Source: Miltoncostaea marina (GTDB lineage Bacteria; Actinomycetota; Thermoleophilia; Miltoncostaeales; Miltoncostaeaceae). From it: a DNA stretch of 64,000 nt. The notes below the pieces were generated by a model. That model saw nothing but the letters and a program-made list of their open reading frames with translations, had not been told where the DNA came from and searched no databases. Each line of letters opens with the position of its first letter. Position 1 is the stretch's first letter. The stretch lies in assembly GCF_018141525.1 (NCBI RefSeq), contig NZ_CP064655.1, forward strand, positions 2,264,501 to 2,328,500. Direction: 5' to 3'. The position numbers and the translations under genes are program-made. Positions 23,983 through 34,490 of the stretch are shown piece after piece.

Positions 23983-24011
23983 CGCACAAGCCGCGATCAC
24001 GACCACGAAGC

Positions 24012-24039
24012 CGAGAGGGCGCCCGAGGGCGCCCTCTCG
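24012..24039. terminator. Bidirectional hairpin terminator
   Basis: A 12-bp perfect stem (24012-24023 with 24028-24039) and a CGAG loop lie between the holin (plus) and the minus-strand triad. No T-tract on the plus side, as is usual in high-GC hosts. Placed to end the late operon and the opposing operon. Confidence 0.8.
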
Positions 24040-24063
24040 TCGTCGACCGGCGCATTGATGCGG

Positions 24064-24375
24064 TCAGTCGCGCCGGTCGTGGATCTTCACCCACTCGCCC
24101 GGCCGGAACGGCTCGTGGTCGGGGATGGTGAGGACGCCGCTCGGGTGCTCGATCGAGATGGACTCGGTCGCGATCGTCGTCCCGTCGGCGAGCTCGACCG
24201 CGAGCCGCGACGTGTCCCCGTCCTGCAACCGCCAGCCGACGGCGCCGGCGAGCGCCGCGACGGCGAACTGGTTGAGGGACACGCCCTCCCGGTGCGCCTC
24301 GTCGATCAGGCGGGCATGCAGGCCCCGCGGCAGCCTCAACAGGATCCGCCCCGACGGCTGGCCGTCGGCGTTCAT
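24064..24375 (-). CDS. Ribbon-helix-helix (HicB/Arc-type) protein
   Basis: 103 residues. Residues 8-48 are a classic ribbon-helix-helix: GRILLRLPRGLHARLIDEAHREG then VSLNQFAVAALAGAVG, as at the C-terminus of HicB antitoxins. The rest is a small beta region (RLAVELADGTTIATESISIEH). Third gene of a leaderless operon with DUF4258 and DUF2283 genes; ATG overlaps the upstream stop by 4 bases. Likely DNA-binding antitoxin and autoregulator of the repeats at 24895-24938; the partner role is inference. Confidence 0.78.
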   Translation of the reverse strand: MNADGQPSGRILLRLPRGLHARLIDEAHREGVSLNQFAVAALAGAVGWRLQDGDTSRLAVELADGTTIATESISIEHPSGVLTIPDHEPFRPGEWVKIHDRRD

Positions 24376-24665
24376 GCCGCGCTCCGCGCGACGTCGAGCG
24401 TCACCTCGCGGTCCGGCACGGCGAGCGCCGAGCGCGCCGCTGCCCGCAGCGCGCCGGCGTCGAGCCCGTAGCGCTCGGCAGCGAGCCCGAGCAGCTCGTC
24501 GAGCTCGTCGCCCGGGTCGAGCACCTCGACGCTGACCGCTCGTCCACCCTCAGCCACGGCGACCACCAGGCCGCGCCCGAGCTCGTCGCCGTAGCGCGCC
24601 TGCCCGGCGGGCTCCTCGAAGTCGATCGCGAGCGCACCGGCCTCGGTGTCGTAGAGCGCGCGCAT
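24372..24665 (-). CDS. DUF2283-like protein
   Basis: 97 residues from ATG 24665, five bases after the DUF4258 stop and with a GGGG stretch upstream. MRALYDTEAGALAIDF, then GLVVAVAEGGRAVSVEVLDPG, fits DUF2283 (a small beta sheet with the 'y..~aD.l~i' opening). An extended helix follows (DELLGLAAERYGLDAGALRAAARSAL). DUF2283 genes commonly sit next to DUF4258 genes; they are suspected antitoxin or partner proteins. A longer upstream extension in this frame is arginine-rich noise and was rejected. Confidence 0.7.
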   Translation of the reverse strand: MRALYDTEAGALAIDFEEPAGQARYGDELGRGLVVAVAEGGRAVSVEVLDPGDELDELLGLAAERYGLDAGALRAAARSALAVPDREVTLDVARSAA

Positions 24666-24670
24666 CCTGC

Positions 24671-24886
24671 TCACCCCCTTCTCGGGAAGACGGACTTCAC
24701 CATCTCCGGGTCGTCGGCCGAGATCACCACCCGGACGACCCGACCGCCGACGCGGGCGGTGTAGCGCGGGTTGCCCTGCTCGTCGGCGTCCTGCTCGGCG
24801 TCGGGCGACGAGACGACGGCCGCCACCTCGGCCTCCGTGATGCCGTACAGCTTCATCCGGCGGCGCGAGTGGCGGTTGAACTTCAT
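24671..24886 (-). CDS. DUF4258 protein (RelE/BrnT-like toxin candidate)
   Basis: 71 residues. Fits DUF4258: HSRRRMKLYGITEAEVAAVV then RYTARVGGRVVRVVISADD and a final MVKSVFPRR, a short RelE-related fold with basic C-terminus. First gene of the triad. The ATG lies only 6 bases from a TATCAT -10 element, so the transcript should be leaderless. Toxic activity is inferred from family and context, not shown. Confidence 0.72.
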   Translation of the reverse strand: MKFNRHSRRRMKLYGITEAEVAAVVSSPDAEQDADEQGNPRYTARVGGRVVRVVISADDPEMVKSVFPRRG

Positions 24887-24892
24887 GGGATG

Positions 24893-24938
24893 ATGATAGC
24901 GCTCGCGATAGCATCACGCAAGCGCGGGCGATAGCATC
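24893..24938 (-). promoter_or_regulatory. Leaderless promoter with GATAGC operator repeats
   Basis: On the minus strand: -35 TTGCGT (24921-24916), a 17-base spacer, -10 TATCAT (24898-24893), then six bases and the ATG of the DUF4258 gene. Overlaid are three GATAGC cores (24895-24900, 24907-24912, 24930-24935); two extend to the 11-mer GCGATAGCATC at 24905-24915 and 24928-24938. The repeats cover both promoter elements, as expected for autorepression by a toxin-antitoxin complex. Confidence 0.72.
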
Positions 24939-24947
24939 CCCCGGTGT

Positions 24948-25892
24948 TCAGCCAGCGGCGGGACGCTGGAGCGCGGCCGCGTCGTCGACCTGAGAACGCC
25001 CCGACCCATCGGCGGAATGGTCGTACGCCCAGCCTGCGTCGATCTCACCGAACCCGTCGGAGAAGACCGCAACCTCAGTCGCTCGCATAACCCGGCGCGC
25101 GGAGTAGTTGAGGCTGAGGAGCCTGAGCCGCCGCTCCGGATACAGCTCTCGCACCCTGGGGTGGTCGTCGTACGTGAGCAGCCATCTGGCGTCGGCGGCG
25201 TTGTTGAGGACGGCCGCGAGCCTCTCGTGCTCCGAAGCGCCGAACGAGTTCATGTACAGGGAGCCGGCCTTGTCGAAATACGGCGGGTCCGCGTAGATGA
25301 GGGCGTCGTCTCGGCAGACGTAGTCGGCGATCACCTCCGCGCCGTCGCGACAGCTCACCGTGATGCGACTCGCGTGCACACCGACCAAGCGAAGTCGCTC
25401 GAGCAGCGCCTCTCGGTTGAACCGGGCGTCAATCTTGTAGGGACCGCTCTGGTCGAGCCCCCCGATCGGCCCCCCGTTCAGCACCCCAGATCGGTTCGTG
25501 CGGTTCAGATAGAAGGTCGCGAAGCCCAGCTCGTCGCGGCTCGCTGCGCTCGGGCCGGCGCTGTGGATCTCCTTCTGACGGCGCCACTCCTCGACCGTGA
25601 GCGGCGTCTCGGCGACGCGTTTGGACATCTCGTCGGGATCCTCGACAAGGAAGCTCCAGAACGCGGCGATCGCTGGGTCGAGGTCGTTGATAACGATCCG
25701 CGCGACCTCACCGGTAACCAACAGGCTGATCGCCGCGCCGGCGCCGCCTGCGTAGGGCTCGACATACACGCCCTCAGAGAGACGGCGGCTGCGGATGTAG
25801 TACTGAAGCCGAGGGTAGAGCGCCGATTTGCCACCGGGATAGCGCAACGGCGACAGGCGGGGTCGCTTCGGTATGCGGCTCCGTCTGGCCAT
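24948..25892 (-). CDS. D12-class DNA adenine methyltransferase (Dam-like)
   Basis: 314 residues. All Dam-family blocks are present: LRYPGGKSALYP (motif X) at about 13-24, EPYAGGAGAAISLL (motif I, SAM binding), IVINDLDPAI (motif II) and DPPYFDKAG (motif IV, catalytic) near residue 215. It methylates adenine N6 at a short site that cannot be read from the sequence. ATG overlaps the stop of the ParB-like gene by one base, so it is the last gene of a seven-gene operon. Base composition is lower in GC than the structural genes. No restriction nuclease is adjacent. Confidence 0.9.
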   Translation of the reverse strand: MARRSRIPKRPRLSPLRYPGGKSALYPRLQYYIRSRRLSEGVYVEPYAGGAGAAISLLVTGEVARIVINDLDPAIAAFWSFLVEDPDEMSKRVAETPLTVEEWRRQKEIHSAGPSAASRDELGFATFYLNRTNRSGVLNGGPIGGLDQSGPYKIDARFNREALLERLRLVGVHASRITVSCRDGAEVIADYVCRDDALIYADPPYFDKAGSLYMNSFGASEHERLAAVLNNAADARWLLTYDDHPRVRELYPERRLRLLSLNYSARRVMRATEVAVFSDGFGEIDAGWAYDHSADGSGRSQVDDAAALQRPAAG

Positions 25893-27340
25893 CACGGGCC
25901 GACCATATAGGCCACGATCGGCTGCATTGAGTCCCATGCGCGCCGCGCCTCGTCGGGCTCGAAGGCGATGGTGTGATTGTGGCTCGCGGCGTTCAGCAGG
26001 TCGGCCCCTACAACCGGGTCGTCGGAACGCAGGGTTGCCAGTCGACTGGTGCGCAGCTTGCCGGCAGCCTGGCGGCGGGTCGTGTCGCCCTCTTCGTCCA
26101 ACCGCTTCTCGAGCCAGCGCAGGCAGTCGTCCAGAGAGACCTGTCCGCGCTTGGCGGGGATCTTCTCGCTCTTGACCTCGGCGAAGGCCTTGATGGTCCG
26201 CTCGAGGAGGGCCCTGAGGCCGAAGGCGGTGAGGTTGGGGAACTGGTTCACGTCGATGCGACCGAGTTCTTCGTAGAGCGCGCGCATCCCGCTCGGGAAG
26301 CCTGCCGGCACCGAGGGGATGTCGAGATACCTCGGGCTGCTGCGGCGCGGGCGACGAGGCGCCGGCTCGGGCGGCGGCGCCTGCTCGGCGCCTCGAGCAG
26401 GCTCCGCCTCGCCGCCGGCCGGCGGCGTGACCAGCGGCTGGTGCTTCGCGCGCCGGCGCCCCCTCATGGACTCGAGCTCGGCGATCAGCTCTGCGAATCG
26501 CCCCTGGGCGCCCGCGCCCGTCTCGTTGAGCGTGCGAGTGTTGAGGCGATTGGAACTGATGCCGGCCACGATGTGCTCGGCCATCCTCTCCCAGGCGGCC
26601 TTGGAGACTCGGAGCTCGAGGCCCCCGGTGTCGCCCAGGCGCAGGCCGGTGACCTCGAGGAACGCGCGCGACTGGAAGAGCCGCTCGAGCGTCGAGTAGC
26701 TCCTCTGCCAACGGCGCGAGCGCACAAACTCACGCAAGGCGGGGTCGACGTAGTCGACGGCCTCGAACGCCTCCATCACCCGGGCGCCCAAGACGAAGCT
26801 CTTCACGTCGATCGTCGGGTAGCGGCGGACGAGTTCGTCCAGGGTCCGGCCGACCCGGAGCCGGTCCCGAAAGAACGCCGCCTGGCGCACCGGCGTCCAC
26901 GGCTGGCGGGGGTTGCTCGTGTGCAGCGCGGCGATCAGCTCGTCTGCTTCTTCGCGGTCGGGGGCGACGAGGATCTCGATCGTCTCCAACGCGTCGCGCC
27001 GGTCGTTGCCCAGCCCTGCGGTCAGTCGACGAATCCGCGACTCGTACGCCGGTACGGTGGGCGGGCTGCATATCGCCTGTAGCGCCGCAAGCCGTCGGTT
27101 CCCCTCAACGACGACGAAGATTTCATCGTCACGGACAGCGACCGGCGTCTCTTGCGTGAAGTAGCCGACCTCCACGATCGCCTTGAGGAGTTCGTAGGCC
27201 CTGTGCTCAGCGAAGAGCTCCTGACGAATCTCCGCTTGGGACACCTCTTCCGCCAGCCCCAAGCGCACGTTGCGCGGATCCAATCGCAGATCGTTGAGGA
27301 CGTGCGCGCGCCGGCGTTCCCACTGGGTCGTGTCGATCAA
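25892..27340 (-). CDS. ParB-like protein with helical C-terminal domain
   Basis: 482 residues from TTG 27340, chosen because it overlaps the upstream stop as TTGA. N-terminal ParB/sulfiredoxin-like domain: DLRLDPRNVRLG, then EVGYFTQETPVAV and the hallmark VVVEGNRRLAALQAI (near residue 85). The middle carries helices and HTSNPRQPWTPVRQA. After a Pro/Arg-rich linker the C-terminal 150 residues (LRALLERTIKAFAEVK ... LNAASHNHT ... RRAWDSMQPIVAYM) resemble HEPN/DUF4145-like helical ends of other ParB-domain proteins. ParB domains can be CTPases or nucleases; no activity can be claimed here. Confidence 0.75.
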   Translation of the reverse strand: MIDTTQWERRRAHVLNDLRLDPRNVRLGLAEEVSQAEIRQELFAEHRAYELLKAIVEVGYFTQETPVAVRDDEIFVVVEGNRRLAALQAICSPPTVPAYESRIRRLTAGLGNDRRDALETIEILVAPDREEADELIAALHTSNPRQPWTPVRQAAFFRDRLRVGRTLDELVRRYPTIDVKSFVLGARVMEAFEAVDYVDPALREFVRSRRWQRSYSTLERLFQSRAFLEVTGLRLGDTGGLELRVSKAAWERMAEHIVAGISSNRLNTRTLNETGAGAQGRFAELIAELESMRGRRRAKHQPLVTPPAGGEAEPARGAEQAPPPEPAPRRPRRSSPRYLDIPSVPAGFPSGMRALYEELGRIDVNQFPNLTAFGLRALLERTIKAFAEVKSEKIPAKRGQVSLDDCLRWLEKRLDEEGDTTRRQAAGKLRTSRLATLRSDDPVVGADLLNAASHNHTIAFEPDEARRAWDSMQPIVAYMVGP

Positions 27341-27516
27341 GCGGGTGTCACCGGGGTCGGCGGACCGTGCCCGCAGCGCTCGCAGCGCCACACCGGCGAG
27401 CTGACCACGCGCGCCAGCCGTCGGCCGGGACGGAGCCCTCGACTCTGCGTCGTCACCACGCCCGCGGTCGTGGGCCCGCCGCACTTAGGGCAGGCGGGTG
27501 CCGCTGACCCGCTCAC
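27337..27516 (-). CDS. Small zinc-ribbon protein
   Basis: 59 residues from GTG 27516, which overlaps the preceding stop as GTGA (a longer start at GTG 27534 is possible). Two Cys pairs, CPKCGG near residue 10 and CERCGH near residue 47, make a zinc ribbon. Stop overlaps the ParB-like TTG. Its regular place in the chain suggests it works with the ParB-like protein and methyltransferase. Function unknown. Confidence 0.65.
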   Translation of the reverse strand: MSGSAAPACPKCGGPTTAGVVTTQSRGLRPGRRLARVVSSPVWRCERCGHGPPTPVTPA

Positions 27517-27761
27517 CACGCCCAGTCCGGCCACTGAACGGGCGGCAGCGGCCGGTCACCGCGTTGCTCGTTGCTGCGGTCGAGGTAGTGGGATGGCTCG
27601 ATCCACCGCAGGGCCTCGCGTACCGTGAGCGGGACTGGCATCCCTCGCTCCGTCCGGTTGGGCCGCGGCATGAACATGCGCTCATCGGGCTTCCAGTCGA
27701 AGCCCTGCGCATCCATCGCCTGGATGAGCTGCTCGAGGCTGGTGACGAGCGGCGCGCCCAT
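27513..27761 (-). CDS. 82-residue protein, function unknown
   Basis: ATG 27761 overlaps the stop of a 24-codon frame. The sequence starts with a helix (SLEQLIQAMDAQGFDW), continues PDERMFMPRPN and VPLTVREALRWIE, and ends Trp-rich (VQWPDWAW). No family recognised. Overlaps on both sides support translation within the operon. Confidence 0.6.
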   Translation of the reverse strand: MGAPLVTSLEQLIQAMDAQGFDWKPDERMFMPRPNRTERGMPVPLTVREALRWIEPSHYLDRSNEQRGDRPLPPVQWPDWAW

Positions 27762-27835
27762 CAGCCCGCCGGCCGCCAGATCTCGGCCACGATCAACCAG
27801 GGCAGCTTGAGCGGCGTCGTCACCGTCAGCCGCAC
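27761..27835 (-). CDS. 24-residue coupled peptide
   Basis: Starts at GTG 27835 (overlapping the lipoprotein's TAG as TAGTG) and ends TGA at 27763-27761 (overlapping the next ATG as TGATG). The peptide is hydrophobic in the middle (LKLPWLIVAEIW). The double overlap suggests it keeps ribosomes coupled along the operon or is a small membrane peptide; it may also be chance. Confidence 0.42.
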   Translation of the reverse strand: MRLTVTTPLKLPWLIVAEIWRPAG

Positions 27836-28044
27836 TAGTCGAGCCCCCGCTCCTCGCGACACGCCAGGCGCTCGGACGGCAGCCCGTAGCGGGCGCACGC
27901 CTGCTGGTCGCGGACTCGCTTCACCTCGTCCTGCGCGTCGCGCACGCTGTCGGCGGGCGTGTCGCTGCAGCCGGCGACGACGGCGGCGCTGGCGAGGGCG
28001 CAGAGACCGAGACGGCCGAGCGTGTAGAGGCGGAGCCTCATCAC
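27835..28044 (-). CDS. Prophage lipoprotein
   Basis: 69 residues. Signal peptide with a basic start (RLRLYTLGR), hydrophobic core (LGLCALASAAVV) and lipobox VAGC, so the Cys near residue 26 should be lipidated. The mature part is short, charged and has two further Cys (QQACARYG, RLACREE). Start GTG 28044 or ATG 28041, both overlapping the upstream stop. Phage lipoproteins often block superinfection; that role here is inference. Confidence 0.72.
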   Translation of the reverse strand: MMRLRLYTLGRLGLCALASAAVVAGCSDTPADSVRDAQDEVKRVRDQQACARYGLPSERLACREERGLD

Positions 28045-28559
28045 AGCTCCGCGAGCGCGGCGGACCGCTTCTGCTCGTACTCCGCGTCCGTGAGGAGCCC
28101 CTCCTCGTGAAGGTCTTTCAGCTTCCGCAGCCGGTCGTGGGGCGACGTGGCGGCTTGATCGGGCGCCGACGCCGGGGTCGCTGGACCGCCGCTGATCCGC
28201 GCCCGAATGTAGTCGCCGATCTCGCCCACCCGTGCCTTCGGATCGACCTTCGAGATGATGGCCTTGTTGCCCGAGGCGAAGATCGTGAGGCGCCCGTACA
28301 TCAGCTTGGTCTCCGTCTGGACCGAGCTGATGCGCTCGTACGGGAAGTCCTCCTGCCTCGACCGCATCAGGCCCTTATCGAAGAAGATGACCCGGCGGTC
28401 TGTGACCACGAGAAGCCCCATGTTGCCGTCGTATTCGCCCCCGGCGAGATTCAGCACCTGCTCGCGGTCGCCGAGGATTTCCGGAAGCGCCCGCAGCTCG
28501 CGGCCGCGCCCCACCGTCGACCGGAGCTTCTGGTTCGCCAGCTCGCTGATCCGTTCCAC
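28041..28559 (-). CDS. PH-like (bPH_2) domain protein with SHOCT tail
   Basis: 172 residues. Residues about 30-120 form a bacterial PH-like domain: NMGLLVVTDRRVIFFDKG, FPYERISSVQTETKLMYGRLTIFASGNKAIISKV. The last 30 (DRLRKLKDLHEEGLLTDAEYEQKRSAALAEL) are a SHOCT module, a short oligomerisation helix pair. Such proteins occur in mobile elements and near defence genes, function mostly unknown. First gene of the seven-gene operon; GTG start preceded by GAGGTGAGG. Confidence 0.85.
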   Translation of the reverse strand: MERISELANQKLRSTVGRGRELRALPEILGDREQVLNLAGGEYDGNMGLLVVTDRRVIFFDKGLMRSRQEDFPYERISSVQTETKLMYGRLTIFASGNKAIISKVDPKARVGEIGDYIRARISGGPATPASAPDQAATSPHDRLRKLKDLHEEGLLTDAEYEQKRSAALAEL

Positions 28560-28631
28560 GCCTCACCTCTCCGTTCGCGTGCGCAACGAGCGTCCCATGA
28601 GGCGCGCGCCGGAGGCGCCTACCCGGCGGGG

Positions 28632-28660
28632 TAGTTTCGTCCGACGAACGTAGAGAACTA
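28632..28660. promoter_or_regulatory. Candidate operator upstream of the PH-SHOCT operon
   Basis: The 150-base gap between the divergent genes at 28559 and 28710 holds a 13-base inverted repeat TTCGTC-C-GACGAA (28636-28648) nested in outer arms TAGTT (28632-28636) and AACTA (28656-28660). The rest of the gap shows only a short GC-rich inverted repeat near 28600-28620. Probably regulatory for one or both flanking units; no clear -35/-10 pair was found. Confidence 0.45.
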
Positions 28661-28709
28661 TCCGCGATCCAGCGGAACTTGTCGGGGGCGACTTTGCATC
28701 ACCTCGCAC

Positions 28710-28982
28710 ATGGGACAAGATCCGGCGGGCATGGCGACGAATCGTCCTGACGCCGCGCCGATTTTCACCCGCGAGGACGGGGTGAGGGCCGTGCAGATGA
28801 TGTTCCTGGCGGACATCGATAAGGCCCTCATGCTGGCCGAGGCCTACGAGCTCGCCGACGACCCCTGGATCAGCCGGCTCTACGAGTGCCGCGACGTCGT
28901 CGCTCGCGCTCTTGATCCTCCAGGGCGTCGCGCATCACGTCCGCGGGATGGCGCGCCTCCGGCTCTCCGGCTGGTGAAGTAG
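28710..28982 (+). CDS. Small protein, function unknown
   Basis: 90 residues from ATG 28710 (or 83 from ATG 28731). Acidic helical middle (VRAVQMMFLADIDKALMLAEAYELADDPWISRLYECRDVVARAL) and a basic tail. It is convergent with, and overlaps by 113 bases, the 3' end of the XRE gene. Codon choice looks gene-like until about base 28905 and poorer after that, so the real C-terminus may matter little. Function not assignable. Confidence 0.55.
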   Translation: MGQDPAGMATNRPDAAPIFTREDGVRAVQMMFLADIDKALMLAEAYELADDPWISRLYECRDVVARALDPPGRRASRPRDGAPPALRLVK

Positions 28983-29235
28983 CCGCTGACCGCCCGCTCG
29001 GAGCCTCGTTCCGCATGCGGATGAGCTCGACCAGGTCGAGCTCGTAGAACCTCGCCAACTTCTCGAGGTGCTTCGAGTCAGGCCGCACTTCGGCCCGCTC
29101 CCAACGGCTGACGTAGGTGAACGGCACCTCGAGGGCCGTTGCCACCTTCTGCTGGGTCAGCCCCCGGCTCGTGCGCGCGTCACGCAGCGTCTGGGCTAAC
29201 TCGGTGCGGCTGGCCATGCGTGCATAGTCATGCAT
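28870..29235 (-). CDS. XRE-family repressor (CI-like candidate)
   Basis: About 121 residues from ATG 29235; starts at 29217 or 29298 are also possible. The helix-turn-helix is clear: TELAQTLRDARTSRGLTQQKVATALEVPFTYVSRWERAEVRPD, followed by LEKLARFYELDLVELIRM. The C-terminal 40 residues are charged and may be flexible; there is no LexA-like peptidase domain, so induction would not be by RecA cleavage. Divergent from the XRE gene at 29301 with TAGTCA repeats between them, the layout of a lysogeny switch. Confidence 0.75.
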   Translation of the reverse strand: MHDYARMASRTELAQTLRDARTSRGLTQQKVATALEVPFTYVSRWERAEVRPDSKHLEKLARFYELDLVELIRMRNEAPSGRSAATSPAGEPEARHPADVMRDALEDQERERRRRGTRRAG

Positions 29236-29311
29236 GGCCACCAGCGCGGCCAGCACATCCGGGGCTTGACCCGCGTGTCTAGTCATGGTTCCATACATGC
29301 ATGTCTAGTCA
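29225..29311. promoter_or_regulatory. Switch region: three TAGTCA sites and a leaderless rightward promoter
   Basis: TAGTCA occurs at 29225-29230, 29280-29285 and 29306-29311; the last two share the 10-mer TGTCTAGTCA (29276-29285 and 29302-29311). Rightward -35 TTGACC (29266-29271), 17-base spacer, weak -10 TTCCAT (29289-29294), then six bases to ATG 29301. One operator copy lies in the spacer and one at the start codon, so binding should block the early operon. The third copy lies at the 5' end of the leftward regulator. Confidence 0.62.
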
Positions 29312-29624
29312 CGCGGAAACGCCGCGCCGCCCCATCGGCGAGTCGCCGCTGAGGCGTCTGCGCAGGCAGCGGAAGCTTTCCCTCGAGGGCCTCGCCCGCG
29401 AGGCCGGCGTCTCCGTGGCGACGGTCTACCGCGCCGAGCACGGCCGCCACGAGACGCGCGAGGAGACCTGGCGCGCTATCGCGACCGCTCTCGGCGTCCC
29501 GCTCGATTCGCTCCATGGCCAGGAGGCTGACAGCGCCTCGACGGGCCGTGGCGAAAATCCAAACGACGGCGCCGGCCGCGATCTCCTGGCAGAGACCACC
29601 GCGGCCGGCGCAGAAAGAGGGTAG
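29301..29624 (+). CDS. XRE-family regulator (Cro-like candidate)
   Basis: 107 residues from a probably leaderless ATG at 29301. Helix-turn-helix at residues 14-68: SPLRRLRRQRKLSLEGLAREAGVSVATVYRAEHGRHETREETWRAIATALGVPLDSL. The tail is low-complexity. First gene of the rightward early operon, opposite the leftward XRE gene with shared operators, so it may act as Cro or as a second repressor. Which one keeps lysogeny cannot be told from sequence. Confidence 0.75.
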   Translation: MSSHAETPRRPIGESPLRRLRRQRKLSLEGLAREAGVSVATVYRAEHGRHETREETWRAIATALGVPLDSLHGQEADSASTGRGENPNDGAGRDLLAETTAAGAERG

Positions 29625-29629
29625 CCGAC

Positions 29630-29908
29630 ATGGCGGGCAACTCGAACTCGGGCCGGCGGCCCGACCTCGAGACGGTCATGCGGGACGCCGGCATGGCGGG
29701 CCGCCTGTTCGTCGAGCAGCTCCAGGGCGCCGCCAGCACCTACCAGGACCACGGCGCGCAGCTCGCGCGCGTCTACCGGGAGGCGCAGGAGAACCAGCGC
29801 CGCATCGACGAGGCGATCGCCGCGCTCCAGCGCGAGCGGGTCGGCTGGGACGGCGTCACCGAGCGCCGGCGCCGCCCCGAGGCCTCCGGGCTCGCGGCGG
29901 CCGCGTGA
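29630..29908 (+). CDS. Small coiled-coil protein of the early operon
   Basis: 92 residues, ATG 29630. Long amphipathic helix (VEQLQGAASTYQDHGAQLARVYREAQENQRRIDEAIAALQRERVGW) suggests a coiled coil. The opening NSNSGRRPDLETVM resembles small DNA-packaging or regulator openings but no family is recognised. One-base overlap with the next gene. Confidence 0.55.
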   Translation: MAGNSNSGRRPDLETVMRDAGMAGRLFVEQLQGAASTYQDHGAQLARVYREAQENQRRIDEAIAALQRERVGWDGVTERRRRPEASGLAAAA

Positions 29909-30249
29909 TGGCCACGACCAGCACCGCGCCCCGCCGCCTCCAGTCCTCGGTCGATCTCGCCCTGGCCGTCTGGTTCGTCGACGCCATCCGCGTCCGGGCC
30001 GAGCGCGAAGGCCTGACGCCGCCCGTCCTGCAGGCGCTGCGCGACGGCCACCGCGACCTCGGCGCGGCGATCGACGAGGTCGCCCTCGAGGCGGGCCTCG
30101 CCCGGCCTCCCCTTCGCGACCGCGCCCGCGCGCTGCTCGACCGCCGGCTGCGCTGGCCCGCCGCCGTGGCGCTCTTCGCCATCACGGTGATCGGCTCCTG
30201 GCTCGCGATCGCGCTCGTCATCCGCGCCCTCCTGGGGGCCCTGTCGTGA
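29908..30249 (+). CDS. Membrane protein of the early operon
   Basis: 113 residues, ATG 29908 overlapping the upstream stop by one base. Cytosolic helical part (LQALRDGHRDLGAAIDEVALEAG) followed by one long hydrophobic helix near the C-terminus (AAVALFAITVIGSWLAIALVIRALLG). Function unknown; an early membrane protein could act in superinfection immunity, which is inference only. Confidence 0.55.
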   Translation: MATTSTAPRRLQSSVDLALAVWFVDAIRVRAEREGLTPPVLQALRDGHRDLGAAIDEVALEAGLARPPLRDRARALLDRRLRWPAAVALFAITVIGSWLAIALVIRALLGALS

Positions 30250-32790: not shown

Positions 32791-33171
32791 GTGACGACCC
32801 GCGAGCGCGCAGCCATGGACGGCCACCCCGCCGCCGCCGCGCCGGGCCCCCAGCCGCCCGCGCCCGAGGCCGCCGTGCCCCAGCACCTCACGCTCCACGA
32901 GGCCGCCGAGCGCCTCGGCGTCTCCTACCGGACCCTCTGGCGCCAGGTGCGCGCGGGCACCCTCCCGGCGATGCGCATCGGGCGCGCCATCCGCGTGAGC
33001 GTCGAGGACCTCGAGCAGCTGCGCCACGACCCGGACGCAGCGGCGCGCGCCGGCCGGTCCGCGGCCCGCACCACTCCGCCGCCCCGCGCCCGCCAGCCGC
33101 GCGGCGAGTTCGCCCGCATGGCGCGCGGCCTGCCTTCGCGCGAGAGCGCTACCCCGGGCGGCGGCCGATGA
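32791..33171 (+). CDS. Excisionase / MerR-like helix-turn-helix protein
   Basis: 126 residues, GTG start. Residues 34-80 are an excisionase-type winged HTH: LTLHEAAERLGVSYRTLWRQVRAGTLPAMRIGRAIRVSVEDLEQL. The rest is low-complexity. It lies just before the integrase with a 4-base overlap, the standard xis-int order, so it likely directs excision and bends attachment-site DNA. Confidence 0.78.
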   Translation: MTTRERAAMDGHPAAAAPGPQPPAPEAAVPQHLTLHEAAERLGVSYRTLWRQVRAGTLPAMRIGRAIRVSVEDLEQLRHDPDAAARAGRSAARTTPPPRARQPRGEFARMARGLPSRESATPGGGR

Positions 33172-34490
33172 GCGTCCAGAAGCGCAAGCTGGGCCGCCGC
33201 ACCCGCTGGGTGGCGCGCTGGGAGGAGGAGGGCCGGCACCGCCAGCGCACTTTCGACACCCAGGCCGAGGCGGTCGCCTTCGACGGGGAAATCAAGGCGC
33301 AGCTGCGCCGCCGACGCCAGCTCGGCGGCTTCGCGCCTTCAGAGGCCTCGGACCTGCCGCTGCGCGACTACGTGCGCCGCTGCTGGCGCCAGCGCGGCGT
33401 CGCCTGGGCCGACACGACCAAGGAGACCTGGGCCGACGTCCTCGACTCCTGGATCCTGCCGCTGATCGGCGACGTGCCGCTGCGCGACATGAACCGCGCG
33501 CGGGTGCGCGAGTTCCGGGCTCAGATGCGCGAGGAGGGCGTGCGCGTCAACGGCCGCCGCCGGGTCGCCACCGCCAACCGCGCCAACGCCGTCATGACCG
33601 TGCTCTCGGCCTTCCTGGGCTACGCGGTCGACGACGAGCTGATCCCCGAGAACCCGTGTCGGGACATCCGCCGGCTGCCCCACAAGCCCTCGAAGCACCG
33701 CGCCCACCCGCCCGTCGTGCTGGAGCGCATCCGCGCCCGCATGGGCGAGCGCGACGCCCTGGTGGTCTCGCTCATGTATCTGGCCGGCCTGCGGCCCGAG
33801 GAGGTCTTCGCCCTCCAGTGGCGCCACGTCGGCGAGCGCGTGCTCCTCATCGAGCAGGCCGCGACCGGCGGGAAGATCAAGGGCACGAAGACCGGCCCGG
33901 GCGCGACCGTCGAGATCGTGCCGCCGCTGGCCGAGGACCTCGCCTCCTGGCGGCGGGCCCTGCAGCCCGCGTCCGGCGACGACCTGGTGGTGCCGAGCCG
34001 CCAGGGCGACGGGGTCATGACCCTGCGCTACTGGCGCGCGAAGGTCTGGCACCCCGCCCGCTTCGAGGCCGAGGTCGCGCAGGCGACCCCCTACGACTGC
34101 CGCCACACCTTCGGCTCGCTCCTCATCCACGAGGGCCGCGACATCCTTGAGGTGCAGCGCGCCATGCGCCACGCCTCGGCGCGCACGACCCTGGAGCACT
34201 ACGCCCACGAGTTCGCCGAGTGGAAGGGCCGCGACAAGGTCTCGCTCGTCGAGGCCGTGGCCGACGCCCGGGCGGCCGTCGCGGCCGAGCTGGCCGCCGC
34301 GGCGGGCGCTGGTGCTCCCGGCCCCACCGGCGACGCCGACGCATCCTCGGTTGCGCAAAAGTTGCGCACTCCCTCCGGTGAGGGGGAGGGCGACGGGGCC
34401 GAGAACCCCGATGACGAGCGGGATGGGCGTTACTGGGCTCGAACCAGTGACCCCCAGCTTGTCGAGCTGGTGCTCTCCCAACTGAGCTAA
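33168..34490 (+). CDS. Tyrosine integrase
   Basis: 440 residues. N-terminal arm-binding part (VARWEEEGRHRQRTFDTQAEAVAF), core-binding SAM-like domain (LRDYVRRCWRQRGVAWADTT ...), and catalytic domain with Arg in LAGLRPEEVFALQW, Lys region GTKTGP, the CRHTFGSLL box (H-x-x-R), RHASARTT His, and nucleophile Tyr in LEHYAHEF. The last 20 residues (RYWARTSDPQLV...) are the antisense reading of tRNA-Val, so the native C-terminus is shaped by the attachment site. Confidence 0.93.
   Translation: MSVQKRKLGRRTRWVARWEEEGRHRQRTFDTQAEAVAFDGEIKAQLRRRRQLGGFAPSEASDLPLRDYVRRCWRQRGVAWADTTKETWADVLDSWILPLIGDVPLRDMNRARVREFRAQMREEGVRVNGRRRVATANRANAVMTVLSAFLGYAVDDELIPENPCRDIRRLPHKPSKHRAHPPVVLERIRARMGERDALVVSLMYLAGLRPEEVFALQWRHVGERVLLIEQAATGGKIKGTKTGPGATVEIVPPLAEDLASWRRALQPASGDDLVVPSRQGDGVMTLRYWRAKVWHPARFEAEVAQATPYDCRHTFGSLLIHEGRDILEVQRAMRHASARTTLEHYAHEFAEWKGRDKVSLVEAVADARAAVAAELAAAAGAGAPGPTGDADASSVAQKLRTPSGEGEGDGAENPDDERDGRYWARTSDPQLVELVLSQLS

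Follow-up and report, generated by a model that had tools for sequence, protein, structure and literature searches.

A reverse-strand block of seven overlapping open reading frames (ORFs), from position 28559 down to 24948 of a 64,000-nucleotide stretch of the Miltoncostaea marina genome (hereafter the window), raises the question of what these genes do and whether they do it together. The original prediction grouped all seven in a possible defence or superinfection-exclusion system, with methylation marking self and a ParB-like protein as effector. Our sequence comparisons point to a smaller unit. We think it probable that the last two genes alone form a divergent, prophage-carried member of the anti-phage pair PD-Lambda-5, a judgement that embraces both the identity of the pair and the mechanism proposed for it below. 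These two genes are as follows (aa, amino acids).

24948..25892, minus strand: D12-class N6-adenine DNA methyltransferase, 314 aa, candidate PD-Lambda-5 component B (Pfam PF02086, E 8e-18; PADLOC, E 5e-97)
25892..27340, minus strand: ParB-like protein, 482 aa, candidate PD-Lambda-5 component A (PADLOC PD-Lambda-5_A, E 9e-28; AlphaFold model; VIA-align)

The ParB-like and methylase genes

The methylase matched the PADLOC model PDLC04018 (PD-Lambda-5_B) with an E-value of 5e-97 and 323 bits, outscoring all other methyltransferase models. The ParB-like protein gave no match in a Pfam scan and matched PDLC04017 (PD-Lambda-5_A) in PADLOC (E 9e-28, 95 bits); almost all of its 26 PADLOC model matches were to PD-Lambda-5_A. 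In the methylase, PF02086 is covered over almost the full profile, and the DPPY motif is invariant in both alignments of relatives; other motifs are invariant as well. Since a match to A, a match to B and the adjacency of the two genes were all found, and these are the testable marks of PD-Lambda-5, we read the pair as a divergent member. The PD-Lambda-5 prototype confers broad anti-phage protection in E. coli and has been called a compacted prophage version of a restriction-modification (RM) plus abortive infection (Abi) system (Vassallo et al. 2022, PMC9519451). Its tendency to be prophage-encoded in Actinobacteria has already been reported (PMC10482375). The defence role foreseen for the block is thus upheld by the PADLOC matches of both genes.

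The window pair resembles PD-Lambda-5 in consisting of two adjacent prophage-borne genes, a ParB-like A and a D12 adenine methylase B, with strong PADLOC matches. It differs in that its A component is divergent, that its operon also holds unrelated passengers and that the pair sits after a repressor gene, not in a P2 hotspot. An adenine methylase beside a DNA-binding partner also recalls Type II RM, but the window operon contains no restriction endonuclease. None of the block's proteins matched a nuclease family in profile scans, and there is no cognate restriction endonuclease gene, in agreement with what had been noted at the outset.

The pair is conserved elsewhere. A D12 methylase directly follows component A in 42 of the 43 full-length relatives, with gaps of -154 to +85 nt; 35 of these 42 loci have both genes on the same strand and 7 are convergent. 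Loci fetched through the methylase could bias this count, and those fetched by the ParB-like protein alone were therefore counted apart: the methylase adjoins A in 17 out of 18. The identities of A and B co-vary (r 0.60 over 38 pairs), a correlation reached by none of 2000 permutations. A pattern scan of genome contigs with the ParB-like protein alone gave no match, and a diverse alignment offered no segment conserved well enough to search that collection; relatives were obtained from viral contigs.

Tight linkage, gene overlap and A/B co-variation are also what a guard or toxin-antitoxin arrangement would offer. Here the methylase would restrain a ParB-HEPN toxin, either by contact or by methylating the toxin's DNA sites, and phages that counter methylation, degrade S-adenosylmethionine or destroy host DNA would release it. 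We consider this explanation unlikely and return to it with the evidence from P2-like phages.

The pair is sporadic: one distant relative was seen among 60 related genomes, and of the 396 genomes sampled from the phylum, 7 matched the PD-Lambda-5_A model, the present genome included. The closest copy belongs to another family of the phylum and shows about 38% identity in A and 58-61% in B. In Marinobacter phage AS1, the pair lies close to the phage integrase. Two loci depart from the usual arrangement. One full-length relative with the ParB-HEPN layout described below (L168:4953-6518) is the sole one that has no adjoining D12 methylase, despite 3.9 kb of downstream sequence. On a Microbacterium plasmid (L020:6965-9339) the ParB-like gene is in two overlapping ORFs and the methylase is split too; this copy is probably decayed.

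Predicted architecture and mechanism of the ParB-like protein

An AlphaFold model of the ParB-like protein, built from 35 sequences (mean predicted local distance difference test score, pLDDT, 84.9; predicted template-modelling score, pTM, 0.67), suggests a ParB/Srx domain at about residues 1-148, a ParB-type helix-turn-helix (HTH) region at about 150-290, a low-confidence linker and a HEPN fold at 346-482. In VIA-align, residues 1-295 matched KorB with Z 9.6 (residues 9-295, 201 residues aligned) and a pNOB8-like ParB-N with Z 8.6. Residues 346-482 matched the HEPN structure 4nqf with Z 9.2 (root-mean-square deviation 3.3 over 120 residues), followed by 2q00 (8.4), AbiA (8.2) and Csm6 (8.0); the first clearly unrelated fold for this stretch appeared at Z 4.7. 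We assign the C-terminal HEPN fold, a helical bundle in the model, with moderate certainty. The structure check called for by the original prediction therefore came out in its favour, and the ParB-like protein, with a HEPN-like end, is still the likely effector. A sequence search of solved structures returned no significant relative of the ParB-like protein, so the fold rests on the model.

The aligned A relatives are 15-38% identical to the window protein. Across the 35 sequences, N24, R26, G80-N81-R82-R83, H140, W148, R376 and H454 are invariant (35/35), and E358 and E380 nearly so. The GxxRxxA motif is present (G80-x-x-R83-x-x-A86), with A86 kept in 32/35, and ParB structures head the list of fold matches. 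The divergent copy and its relatives thus provide a ParB-HTH-HEPN layout with named invariant residues.

The ParB fold, the GxxRxxA motif and the HTH region that follows it are shared with chromosomal and plasmid ParB, KorB and Noc, and could be taken to mean that these are prophage or plasmid partition genes, a ParB acting with ParA and parS. The window protein differs from these proteins in having no ParA, no parS that we could find, and a C-terminal HEPN in place of the ParB dimer domain. No ORF with the ParA Walker motif KGGxGK[TS] was found in the prophage or the 43 related loci. The best match to the canonical parS 16-mer has 6 mismatches, in a search that a divergent site could escape. 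The partner is a methylase, and the genes lie in an integrated prophage with att sites. We have rejected partition, given the absence of ParA from the prophage and the 43 related loci, and allow it a negligible chance of being right.

We propose instead that the D12 methylase would methylate adenines in the DNA of both host and prophage and so mark it as self, and that the ParB-like protein would be sensor and effector in one. Its ParB/Srx nucleotide-binding domain and ParB-type HTH would load on unmarked incoming phage DNA under nucleotide control, and loading would release the C-terminal HEPN as a nuclease, most likely on RNA. Infection would then be stopped directly or by cell shutdown. The self-marking role given to methylation in the original prediction is plausible within this scheme. 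Among the open-licence literature searched, we found no paper working out the mechanism of PD-Lambda-5.

Several observations weigh against this proposal. The A component of the closest relative is just 38% identical. Foldseek alone gave weak matches (ParB, E 0.001 to 0.06; HEPN, E 7), and the HEPN assignment is consequently based on the VIA-align scores and on the range of independent HEPN chains that matched. In the 35 sequences, no conserved Arg lies 4-6 residues before the invariant H454, so that they lack R-x4-6-H, the canonical motif of HEPN RNases, and both RNase activity and an RNA target are guesses. The window protein is set apart by this from the HEPN abortive-infection proteins AbiA and Csm6, whose fold it shares over its C-terminal 137 residues. 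Finally, the ParB/Srx domain could itself be a nuclease, as has been described in relatives (PMC5512222).

This last point opens another explanation. Nuclease activity would belong to the ParB/Srx domain, through the nucleoside triphosphate-regulated nicking of DNA that has been reported for ParB-methylase and Osa; the HEPN would serve only for dimerisation or nucleotide binding, and the pair would be a compact restriction system of two genes. DNase activity has been described for ParB/Srx relatives, one of them fused to an adenine methylase (PMC5512222), and the missing canonical HEPN motif would be accounted for. Against this, R376 and H454 are invariant in 35/35 sequences, although identity to the window protein is only 15-28%, and look catalytic, R376 sitting on another helix than H454, and relatives that lack the HEPN carry a separate nuclease-like gene. 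We judge this explanation improbable, slightly more so than the guard arrangement.

The sister layout in P2-like phages

The separate nuclease-like gene belongs to a second group of relatives. We identified 58 short ParB-like proteins (at least 340 aa, typically about 375) that have no HEPN, many of them in P2-like phages. In 45 of the 58 they are accompanied by a separate protein of about 330 aa and a methylase, which is D12 in 16 and of the cytosine type in 29; the gene for the 330-aa protein accompanies none of the 43 long (HEPN) forms. A model of this protein (pLDDT 90.9) resembled the restriction-type nucleases MspJI, FokI, Shedu and EcoT38I weakly in VIA-align (Z 5-6; restriction nucleases as a whole, Z 4-6), and a D-x-G-x-D ... 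D ... Q ... K pattern is kept; Foldseek gave no significant match for the P2-type protein. These faint resemblances hint that it could be a PD-(D/E)XK-like nuclease.

P2-like loci such as those of phage vB_EcoM-12474III and Peduovirus P2 (NC_070904) resemble the window pair in that their ParB-like sensor is homologous and has a DNA methylase as its partner. They differ in having no HEPN, in the separate, putatively PD-(D/E)XK-like protein and in a methylase that is usually convergent and often of the cytosine type. The exchange suggests that the HEPN stands in for a restriction nuclease, and supports an RM logic with a HEPN effector. It also bears on the guard arrangement: although the HEPN part resembles HEPNs of the abortive-infection or toxin type (AbiA, Csm6), a layout that swaps it for a nuclease-like protein and keeps a D12 or cytosine methylase fits self-marking better than antitoxin contact.

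Tentatively, and with a little less than even confidence, we extend the proposal to a wider modular family made of a ParB-HTH sensor, an adenine or cytosine self-marking methylase and an exchangeable effector, either a fused non-canonical HEPN or a separate PD-(D/E)XK-like nuclease. Such a family would follow RM logic with an output switchable from DNA cutting to HEPN shutdown, the ParB nucleotide switch reading methylation. The effector exchange may be a new point (we found no paper on it among the open-licence literature searched), and its apparent occurrence makes the methylation-gated model directly testable.

Loci of the sister type, for example L116:4941-8098 and L018:3974-7010, encode ParB-HTH without HEPN, together with the 330-aa protein and a methylase of the D12 or the cytosine type. 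PADLOC matched the ParB part of such loci alone, as PD-Lambda-5_A / PDC-M38A, and gave no match for the one 330-aa protein submitted (L018). A literature search on PDC-M38 found no paper.

The upstream genes and the prophage setting

The remaining five ORFs of the block lie upstream of the pair.

28041..28559, minus strand: PH-SHOCT protein, 172 aa (PF14470, E 3e-14; SHOCT, E 5e-8; PHROG 2700, E 5e-34)
27835..28041, minus strand: small lipoprotein, 68 aa (sequence with a signal helix followed by a lipobox-type AGC)
27761..27835, minus strand: 24-codon ORF, doubtful as a gene (start/stop overlaps as sole support)
27513..27761, minus strand: protein of unknown family, 82 aa (no convincing family match)
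27337..27516, minus strand: zinc-ribbon ORF (CxxC...CxxC), about 59 aa, weak gene call (TIGR03831, E 3.5e-4)

Measurement confirmed the seven overlapping ORFs, with 1-4 bases shared at each junction. The overlap is 1 base at PH-SHOCT/lipoprotein, lipoprotein/24-mer and 24-mer/82-aa, 4 bases at 82-aa/zinc ribbon (GTG start at 27516) and at zinc ribbon/ParB-like (TTG start at 27340), and 1 base, in TGATG, at ParB-like/methylase. In support of the TTG start, the closest relative has its first residue at the same place. Two ORFs, the 24-mer and the zinc ribbon, are weak gene calls, and the other five are sound. For the zinc-ribbon ORF, codon-position guanine-plus-cytosine (GC) contents are untypical (0.70/0.78/0.82), and zinc-ribbon matches fall below cutoff except for the YgiT finger (TIGR03831, E 3.5e-4), which barely exceeds it.

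Because of the overlap at every junction the seven genes are likely co-transcribed, and this is what speaks for a single system, serving defence or superinfection exclusion, that combines membrane and DNA parts. The linkage found in related loci speaks against it. The ParB-like/D12 pair is conserved, but none of the 43 related loci has, within about 5 kb, a homologue of any of the four testable upstream genes (PH-SHOCT, lipoprotein, 82-aa and zinc ribbon). The closest cellular copy of the pair and two further cellular copies stand apart from such genes, with no other window genes nearby. PH-SHOCT relatives are widespread in temperate phages other than those found with the pair, lying between cI and int in TP901-1 and beside int in Gordonia phages. 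The 82-aa protein had no homologue in the 60 related genomes. We have rejected the seven-gene system on this lack of linkage in the related loci and regard it as very improbable; that part of the original prediction was not sustained. The upstream genes are best regarded as passengers that travel with the lysogeny module, and all five are probably independent prophage passengers co-transcribed with the pair. Superinfection exclusion by the lipoprotein and PH-SHOCT genes is possible; a literature search on SHOCT with superinfection found no paper.

The prophage origin suggested earlier is supported by the following features, together with structural genes.

Start 5,979 bp to the left of window position 1, about 40.4 kb from attR, no strand: attL, perfect copy of the 45-bp repeat
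34424-34468, no strand: attR, 45-bp perfect repeat of the tRNA-Val 3' end
33168..34490, plus strand: integrase (PHROG 1, E 7e-53)
28870..29217, minus strand: XRE repressor-type regulator at the head of the reverse-strand block (HTH_3, E 2e-13; phage regulator PHROGs)
29301..29624, plus strand: second XRE regulator, in cro-like position (phage regulator PHROGs, best E 2e-13)
29206..29316, no strand: divergent switch region between the two XRE genes (operator-like inverted repeats)

The prophage measures 40,447 bp in a 3.37 Mb, single-contig host genome and is flanked by the perfect 45-bp att repeats at tRNA-Val. Between the att copies, the plus strand carries terminase, portal, capsid, tape measure, baseplate and endolysin genes; an excisionase-type gene and the integrase, whose end lies at attR, are also found there. 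The reverse-strand block has the lysis genes on one side and the early genes on the other. For the host genome, the locus is thus explained as prophage cargo. GC content is 68.9% in the block and 75.0% in the structural genes (49-22120), and just 14 of 618 same-size sliding windows in the window's part of the prophage have a lower GC than the block. Two 60-base lines counted by hand earlier (25021 and 25801; 63% and 65%) measured 63.3% and 65.0%, and the lower GC of the block relative to the structural genes was likewise reproduced.

The switch region contains 17-nt arms (29271-29287/29300-29316) that are 88% complementary, and two more inverted-repeat pairs; it is likely the lysis-lysogeny switch. 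Since the XRE pair and inverted repeats form a temperate-phage switch layout, a lysogen most likely expresses the block. A scan of 24000-30000 for sigma-70-type promoters found none and is uninformative at such GC.

A 90-aa ORF (28710-28982, plus strand) with no family match shares bases with the 3' end of the repressor gene on the opposite strand. Antisense ORF clusters opposite the ParB-like and methylase genes are probably shadow coding and not genes. Downstream of the methylase, in the same reverse block, small genes of the DUF4258, DUF2283 and HicB types (24064-24886, minus strand) likely make up a toxin-antitoxin-type cluster.

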